Source of the DNA: Shinella sp. CPCC 101442
GTDB lineage: Bacteria > Pseudomonadota > Alphaproteobacteria > Rhizobiales > Rhizobiaceae
DNA length: 64,000 nt
NCBI RefSeq assembly: GCF_024704725.1
Contig: NZ_JALIQS010000012.1
Location: 1 to 64,000, forward strand
Direction: 5' to 3'
The translations under genes and the position numbers were made by a program. Within the stretch, counting starts at the first letter, position 1; every line of letters starts with the position of its first letter. Shown piece by piece: positions 23,364 to 40,613 of this stretch. Under the pieces are notes generated by a model. The model did not search any database, was not told where the DNA came from, and was given only the letters and a program-made list of their open reading frames with translations.

Positions 23364-23660
23364 ATGTCCCGTAGTTGCGAATTGACCGGCAAGGGCGTCC
23401 AGTCGGGCAACAATGTGAGCCACGCAAACAACAAGACGAAGCGCCGGTTCCTGCCGAACCTGTGCAGTGTCACGCTGATTTCCGATGCCCTCGGCCAGCG
23501 TTTCCGTCTTCGCGTTTCCGCTGCTGCTCTGCGTTCCGTCGAGCACCGCGGTGGTCTCGATGCCTTCCTGCTGAAGGCTGAAGAAAACGAACTGTCGATG
23601 CGCGCTCGTCTGCTGCGCCGCCAGATCGCCAAGAAGACCGCTGCTGCTGTCGCTGCCTGA
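23364..23660 (+). CDS. rpmB: 50S ribosomal protein L28
   Basis: A 98-residue basic protein of the large ribosomal subunit. The N-terminus [20 protein letters not shown] and [12 protein letters not shown] are the L28 signature; the C-terminal 25 residues are Arg/Lys/Ala-rich. Length is as usual in alphaproteobacteria. It has its own strong promoter 90 bp upstream and a hairpin 25 bp downstream. The cysteine near residue 5 is a single remnant and does not form a zinc-binding set. Confidence 0.96.
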
Positions 23661-23684: not shown

Positions 23685-23721
23685 CATTGAGGCTTGACCG
23701 GGTTCCGGGCAGGCCTCAATG
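23685..23721 (+). terminator. Hairpin after rpmB, probable transcript end
   Basis: A perfect 9-bp stem (CATTGAGGC at 23685-23693, GCCTCAATG at 23713-23721) encloses a 19-nt GC-rich loop. Only CTTTGC follows, so termination would be inefficient and some transcripts may continue into the riboswitch and yhhQ. Confidence 0.45.
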
Positions 23722-23784: not shown

Positions 23785-23815
23785 CTGGTGGCATCACCCA
23801 GGATAAAAAAATGCT
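23785..23815 (+). promoter_or_regulatory. Candidate preQ1-I riboswitch overlapping the yhhQ start codon
   Basis: An H-type pseudoknot can be drawn: P1 CTGG (23785-23788) with CCAG (23798-23801); P2 GGCAT (23790-23794) with ATGCT (23811-23815); an A-rich joining strand GATAAAAAA (23802-23810); and a cytosine at 23797 just before the 3' strand of P1, where preQ1-I aptamers place the ligand-pairing C. The CACCC segment also matches the family. P2 contains the AUG and P1 borders the AGGA ribosome-binding site, so ligand binding would block translation. The downstream gene is a queuosine-precursor transporter, the expected target. Loop 1 and loop 2 are shorter than in the best-known aptamers. Confidence 0.55.
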
Positions 23816-24449
23816 AGCGAACCGCATTACCCTTCTTTACGTCCTCCTGATGACGGCCGTTGTCGTCGCCTCCAACGTGCTCGTGCAGTACCCGCTTTCG
23901 GGTGAGCTCCTGGGTATCAATCTCGGCGACCTCCTGACCTATGGTGCCTTCACCTATCCGGTCGCCTTCCTCATCACCGACCTCACCAACCGCCAGTTCG
24001 GCCCGCGCATCGCGCGCCGTGTCGTGGCCGCCGGTTTCCTGGTTGCCGTGGTTTTCTCGTTTGCCGTCGCATCGCCGCGCATCGCCATAGCTTCCGGCTC
24101 GGCGTTCCTGCTTGGCCAGCTGCTCGATATCTCGGTGTTCAACCAGCTGCGCCGACAGACCTGGTGGCGCGCGCCGCTGTTTGCCTCGCTGTTCGGATCG
24201 GTGCTGGACACGGTAATCTTCTTCTCCTTCGCTTTCGCGCCGGTCTTTTCGGTCTTCGGTCCGAACGACGCCTTCGCCATCGAATGGGCGCCTGTTCTGG
24301 GTGTGCTGACGGCGGAAGCCCCGCGCTGGATCTCCTGGGCGCTCGGCGATTTCAGCGTGAAGGTGCTGGTCGGTTTCGTCATGCTGCTGCCCTACGGCGC
24401 GCTCATGAGCAAGCTGAAGCCGATGCCGGACGTTGAAAAACTGGCCTGA
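23811..24449 (+). CDS. yhhQ: Queuosine precursor (preQ0/preQ1) transporter, YhhQ/COG1738 family
   Basis: A 212-residue inner-membrane protein with six hydrophobic segments. Family features are ASNVLVQYPL (segment 1-2), TYPVAFLITDLTNRQFG, LGQLLDISVFNQLR and GSVLDTVIFFSFAF. It takes up 7-deazaguanine precursors used to make queuosine at the tRNA wobble position. ATG 23811 has AGGA 7 nt upstream, and both sit inside the candidate preQ1 pseudoknot. An earlier in-frame ATG at 23694 falls in the rpmB hairpin and is unlikely. Confidence 0.9.
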   Translation: MLANRITLLYVLLMTAVVVASNVLVQYPLSGELLGINLGDLLTYGAFTYPVAFLITDLTNRQFGPRIARRVVAAGFLVAVVFSFAVASPRIAIASGSAFLLGQLLDISVFNQLRRQTWWRAPLFASLFGSVLDTVIFFSFAFAPVFSVFGPNDAFAIEWAPVLGVLTAEAPRWISWALGDFSVKVLVGFVMLLPYGALMSKLKPMPDVEKLA

Positions 24450-40536: not shown

Positions 40537-40613
40537 GGTCCCGTAGCTCAGCAGGATAGAGCACCAGATTCCTAATCTGGGGGTCCCGCGTTCGAATCGC
40601 GGCGGGATCACCA
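40537..40613 (+). tRNA. tRNA-Arg (anticodon CCT)
   Basis: A 77-nt cloverleaf with encoded CCA. The acceptor arms GGTCCCG and CGGGATC pair (one G-T), the anticodon stem CCAGA/TCTGG holds the loop TTCCTAA with anticodon CCT at 40571-40573, and the T-arm loop is TTCGAAT. It reads AGG codons. No truncated 3' copy of the tRNA is visible nearby, so there is no sign of an integrated element. Confidence 0.95.

Follow-up and report, generated by a model that had tools for sequence, protein, structure and literature searches.

The closest described system is the yhhQ riboswitch of Escherichia coli, which belongs to type III of the preQ1 class I riboswitches. Its preQ1-bound crystal structure has been published along with mutants (PMC10622847), and the structure is PDB 8FZA (PMC11625349). 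In this RNA, U6 is reported to touch the ligand and C14 to confer specificity (PMC10622847). Type III riboswitches are described as almost exclusive to Pseudomonadota or to gamma-proteobacteria (PMC11625349, PMC10622847). The E. coli leader reads UUGGG, UUCCCUCA, C, CCCAA, a linker, and AAAAAGG, and its second stem (P2) captures the AGG of the Shine-Dalgarno sequence. The type II riboswitches (Tte and Bsu) share with the element described here an AC before the return strand of P1, an A-rich L3, and the knot layout (PMC11625349). They differ in having a larger loop (PMC10622847) and purine contacts in P2, and their P2 holds only the first bases of the Shine-Dalgarno sequence. SAM-II and other alpha-proteobacterial leader RNAs (PMC1273637) come from the same bacterial class as our element, and we liken them to it by class alone.

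We analysed the first 64,000 nucleotides of a contig of Shinella sp. CPCC 101442 (the window). A first-pass annotation had proposed that a preQ1-I riboswitch lies at the start of yhhQ in this window, with the start codon in its second stem. YhhQ imports a building block for a tRNA modification. We examined a sample of 199 genomes of the GTDB family Rhizobiaceae, 188 of which bear yhhQ, with one leader for each yhhQ genome. By covariance model and direct reading of leaders, the element is present at yhhQ in 178 of these 188 genomes. In the window, it is a 30-nt block, CTGGTGGCATCACCCAGGATAAAAAAATGC, at 23785-23814, with the AUG of yhhQ inside the block. The features of the locus are as follows, with counts from the 178 genomes that have the element:

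23364-23660, forward strand: rpmB (L28), the upstream neighbour, outside the switch
23685-23721, forward strand: strong hairpin 3' of rpmB, probably its terminator, outside the switch
23785-23788, forward strand: 5' strand of P1, CUGG, which pairs with CCAG at 23798-23801
23789, forward strand: invariant U at the position of E. coli U6 (U in 178/178)
23790, forward strand: loop position 7, G in the window (G in 87/178, U in 91/178; the UUC subtype and E. coli have U)
23791-23794, forward strand: 5' strand of P2, GCAU, comprising the anti-start-codon CAU and a G that pairs with codon 2 (CAU in 178/178; position 8 covaries with +4)
23795-23797, forward strand: L2, including C23797, the specificity cytosine (E. 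coli C14; C in 178/178)
23798-23801, forward strand: 3' strand of P1, CCAG
23800-23803, forward strand: Shine-Dalgarno-like AGGA, overlapping P1 (exact AGGA in 147/178, AGG in 172/178)
23802-23810, forward strand: L3, the A-rich strand GAUAAAAAA (six A before the AUG in 172/178, five or seven in the other six)
23811-23814, forward strand: 3' strand of P2, formed by the start codon (AUG) and the base after it, in codon 2
23811-24449, forward strand: yhhQ, queuosine precursor transporter (TIGR00697, 88.5 bits with a cut-off of 50.95; Pfam Vut_1, 75.4 bits)

The transporter is 94-96% identical to those of two genomes of the same genus and 84-96% identical to those of named Shinella records. Of 75 public leaders, 53 carry at least four consecutive T in the 60 nt upstream of the motif, and in 24 of the 75, such a T run is only one base away from the P1 stem. 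In one leader (L086), the T run follows a hairpin that resembles the rpmB terminator, so yhhQ transcripts would begin inside the hairpin or read through it.

The bases of P1, of the cytosine directly 5' of its return strand, of the AUG in P2, and of the AGGA that P1 overlaps are as the first-pass annotation described them. It had also described the loops as 1-2 nt shorter than in textbook examples. They are not abnormally short: eight nucleotides plus the specificity C between the strands of P1 is the length reported for E. coli type III (PMC10622847). This is the length in 173 of the 178 genomes, including the window, and the other five are one nucleotide longer. The base before the specificity C is A in 157 genomes, C in 13, and T in 8; the window reads AC.

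We think it very probable that the element controls translation as a preQ1 class I riboswitch with type III architecture, whose P2 knot hides the start codon of yhhQ. We base this on sequence comparison: the layout is conserved, P2 covaries as far as codon 2, the element is linked to yhhQ, and its positions match those of the E. coli riboswitch. In the predicted mechanism, P1 and the A-rich strand would frame the pocket, and C23797 would read the ligand. With preQ1 bound, the loop's GCAU would pair with AUG-C and hide the start codon, while P1 would hold part of the AGGA in the knot. Closing the knot would keep out the 30S subunit and stop translation of the importer. The ligand would thus repress yhhQ, giving feedback on preQ1 import.

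A covariance model of the 30-nt block matched 177 of the 199 family genomes at E<=1e-6, with one match per listed genome. One of these matches (L178, in G122) is weak and lies in a genome without yhhQ, and we counted it as chance. Direct reading of the leaders added two genomes (G102 and G174) for the total of 178, among which we kept the leaders of other lengths. The genome that contains the window has one exact match to the pattern; under laxer settings, another genome (G039) had two extra weak matches beyond the one at yhhQ. Orthologous leaders keep P1, the anti-start-codon CAU, and the cytosine in 178 of the 188 genomes, and P2 covaries at its fourth pair. This conservation and covariation support the candidate preQ1-I riboswitch of the first-pass annotation. 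Ten of the 188 yhhQ genomes lack the motif (L182-L187 and L189-L192), which counts against our explanation. Several of these ten genomes are small, and L189 looks like a decayed copy. The genomes of L183 and L189 are reduced (1.1 and 1.5 Mb); the motif is decayed or missing in them, and yhhQ is kept.

The first-pass annotation had also raised the possibility of a chance fold. The lack of a match to RF00522 would fit with this, but the family-wide matches to the model and the consistent covariation in P2 rule it out, and we give it practically no weight. Above the gathering threshold, RF00522 (PreQ1) matched nothing in the window or the leaders (0 of 101 family genomes). We also compared the type III leader of E. 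coli yhhQ to Rfam, and no family matches it. Because this control fails too, the silence of Rfam is not evidence, and the Rfam check that had been proposed is uninformative. (The sole above-threshold match to Rfam in the window is a tRNA gene at 40537-40610.)

Clear copies of the element appear to be confined to the family, as the model searches found no clear copy outside it. In the class-wide search (385 genomes, including the window's own), the best match outside the family had 24.6 bits, and in the order-wide search (249 genomes, including nine matching family members), the best had 24.4 bits; these searches used stricter filters, so weak matches can be lost. We took all the matches outside the family, at 24.6 bits or below, as noise. 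A script found no UUC pattern in the order-level matches L151 and L152. A pattern search of the phylum for the UUC/AUG form found it in 20 of 398 genomes: 10 from the family and 10 others. We inspected the 10 non-family matches by eye and rejected them: no P1 among them has four pairs, and the best (L327) combines a three-pair P1 with a three-base L3. Three records that are titled as other organisms (L102, Bacillus subtilis SK6B4; L106, Comamonas; and L051, Arenimonas) contain yhhQ loci of the Rhizobiales type with the motif. These are probably mislabelled or contaminated assemblies.

To describe covariation, we number the loop as in E. coli and name the subtypes by loop letters 6-8. Position 8 pairs with the first base of codon 2 (+4) wherever the loop has G at position 7: G8 with C+4 in 72 of 72 UGG genomes, C8 with G+4 in 15 of 15 UGC genomes, and A8 with U+4 in one UGA loop from a named record (L092). 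Among the 91 UUC genomes, +4 is A in 45, C in 29, T in 17, and G in none. On a tree built from 185 transporter sequences, we count at least 12 changes of loop type. Across the 88 UGG rows of this tree, +4 changes 0 times, versus 22-29 times at each of +5 to +9; across the 15 UGC rows, it changes 0 times, versus 3-6 times at +5 to +9. In the 76 UUC rows, +4 changes 19 times and is never G. Tests with independent pairs on strongly supported branches had 2-3 contrasts, none of them against the pairing (p 0.25-0.5), which is too few for significance.

We also considered the 29 distinct 30-nt rows, without L175 and without rows of other lengths. The named structure pairs 93.5% of cells, and sliding the partner strand reduces this to 47% or less. 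What remains unpaired is the fourth P2 pair in the 15 rows of the UUC subtype. Overall, the covariation indicates that P2 is genuine and extends one base into codon 2. The first-pass annotation gave P2 five pairs. Four of these (23791-23794 with 23811-23814) are conserved, and the fifth, G23790 with U23815, is not: in the 88 tree rows with G8, +5 changes 26 times, and we rejected this pair. Two features of P2 count against our preferred explanation. First, P2 pairs 9-11 are invariant within the family; they never vary because the AUG is fixed by coding. Second, the fourth P2 pair is missing from the UUC subtype.

P1 is CUGG/CCAG in 177 of the 178 genomes and CCGG/CCGG in the other (L175/L340, from G005). 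This compensatory change from U-A to C-G is the sole variation in P1. The same genome has an in-frame N-terminal extension of YhhQ of about 60 residues that begins at the riboswitch AUG (we determined the frame by hand). That P1 hardly varies counts against the riboswitch: the support for this stem is one compensatory event and the identity with E. coli. Ordinary folding finds no unusual stability (z -0.64), and pseudoknots are outside the model of such folding. P1 can also be read as DNA. As CTGG-N9-CCAG, it is a perfect dyad in all 178 genomes, and the P1 change in L175 keeps the palindrome, as expected if it were an operator for a repressor protein that binds over the ribosome-binding site. 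But an operator would not explain why position 8 covaries with a coding base 23 nt away, nor the nearly fixed A tract, the register of the AUG, or the resemblance to the RNA of E. coli. We consider an operator to be very unlikely.

Among public relatives, the block is found in the leaders of 75 of 80. It is nearly identical in its letters, and the flanks diverge at its edge. If the conserved block were instead coding and in frame with yhhQ (GGITQDKKM in Shinella), it could be a conserved N-terminal peptide. In the window, this frame is open upstream, and in 83 of 180 rows an in-frame start codon lies upstream within the 150 nt that we examined. But the other 97 have none there, the distance from P1 to the AUG has frame-shifting lengths in 14 of the 180 rows, and the flanks diverge where the block ends. 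This explanation is more far-fetched still than an operator.

How closely does the candidate riboswitch resemble type III? It shares with the E. coli riboswitch the yhhQ gene, an H-type knot, the invariant U after P1, an 8-nt loop followed by the specificity C, and an A-rich strand that enters P2. The pocket bases are all kept: U6, C14, the G-C pair below the ligand, and the A before P2. The UUC subtype also shares the UUCC-UCAC loop: its leader reads CUGG, UUCCAUCA, C, CCAG, a linker, and AAAAAAAUG. Its loop is identical in length to that of E. coli, and the sole difference within the loop is C10 to A10, which is the compensation needed for a P2 strand that changes from AGG to AUG.

There are also clear differences. 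P2 captures the AUG (and one base of codon 2 in 87 of 178 genomes) instead of the Shine-Dalgarno AGG, P1 has four pairs instead of five, the short L3 hardly varies in length, and the element is alphaproteobacterial, whereas type III is almost only found in Gammaproteobacteria. In the window's subtype, U7 and C8 are replaced; position 7 is G, and the conserved U7 of type III contacts A27 in E. coli, which counts against our assignment. As to the other hallmarks of type III, the AC before the 3' strand of P1, the short loop, the A-rich L3 by P2, and the linkage to yhhQ are all present in the window. The UU that follows the 5' strand of P1 in type III is UG in the window; across the 178 genomes, the first U is universal and the second is found in 91, so only the UUC subtype has both. 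Similarly, the loop of the UUC subtype (91 of 178 genomes) is pyrimidine-rich, and the window's loop, UGGCAUCA, has pyrimidines at 4 of 8 positions. Where type III pairs with the Shine-Dalgarno sequence AAGG, the window's P2 strand is AAUG, the start codon. Because of this pairing, as well as the window's UG and its loop composition, the element is not an ordinary member of type III. We propose that it is a real, family-wide element that works like a type III preQ1 riboswitch and has been re-aimed at the start codon.

A minor group of genomes departs from this arrangement. AGG follows the CC of the P1 strand in 172 of the 178 genomes, and in the translations that we inspected, often truncated to 23-34 residues, yhhQ begins at the AUG bound by P2. 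The other six genomes, all of the UGC type, have no AGG behind P1; their linkers are CCT, CCC, or CGACACC, and their P2 strand, AUGGA, sits at the position of a Shine-Dalgarno sequence. In five of the six (L174, L176, L179, L188/L330, and L193/L331), the AUG of P2 is out of frame, an in-frame ATG lies 7-13 nt further on, and UGGA is placed as the Shine-Dalgarno sequence of this downstream ATG. (The frame of L176 was worked out by hand from coordinates.) The sixth (L177) reads through from the AUG of P2, and a GTG also lies downstream. In all genomes, we infer the start from frame and homology only. In the minor group, the switch seems to be flipped to hiding the downstream Shine-Dalgarno sequence, which has the look of a natural interconversion with the mode seen in E. 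coli.

To consider the ligand, we searched for the queuosine pathway. A match to QueF with E<=1e-15 is absent from 79 of the 178 genomes with the motif, which counts against preQ1: these genomes would have to take up their preQ1 or sense a different ligand. QueF is found in 99 of 178 genomes with the motif versus 2 of 10 without it (Fisher p 0.046, ignoring kinship). A simple link between the motif and de novo synthesis of preQ1 is weak, and we do not propose one. The Shinella genome that contains the window (G000; contigs C3, C5, and C6) has a clear QueF and no match to QueC above the family cut-off. Imported preQ0 may thus be its source of preQ1, by reduction, and feedback by preQ1 would then be sensible. 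Within Shinella, the pathway is patchy: G075 has QueF and QueC, G157 has neither, and G000 has QueF alone.

The same RNA architecture could have another 7-deazaguanine, such as preQ0 or queuine, as its natural ligand. The 79 genomes without QueF, the window genome's lack of QueC (so that preQ0 may be the main import), and the departure from type III at position 7 in 87 of the 178 genomes are all consistent with this. But the element retains the cytosine for specificity, the invariant U, the A that precedes P2, and the G-C pair beneath the ligand, and the type III riboswitch of E. coli is reported to strongly prefer preQ1 over preQ0 (PMC10622847). We consider another ligand to be unlikely, and we favor preQ1.

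More speculatively, the element might be a preQ1-I type of its own. Its knot would clamp the AUG together with the next base, in codon 2, so that the RNA would partly dictate the second amino acid. In the window's UG subtype, the contacts of E. coli U7 and C8 would be replaced by the fourth Watson-Crick pair, and the rebuilt ceiling of the pocket might shift the preference for the ligand. Lineages would switch between the start codon and the Shine-Dalgarno sequence as the hidden site. We put this forward only tentatively.

We searched the literature by title and abstract, and among the papers listed, none describes this element in Rhizobiaceae; single members may figure in the original list of type III sequences. 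Neither "start codon" nor "AUG" occurs in the main texts of PMC11625349 and PMC10622847. With our findings, the range of type III-like preQ1 riboswitches would include a large family of alpha-proteobacteria that the Rfam model misses. The covariation between loop and coding sequence offers a clean compensatory-mutation test of start-codon sequestration in an RNA of about 30 nt. More broadly, the element suggests that evolution has switched which part of the initiation site is hidden by a ligand-bound knot.
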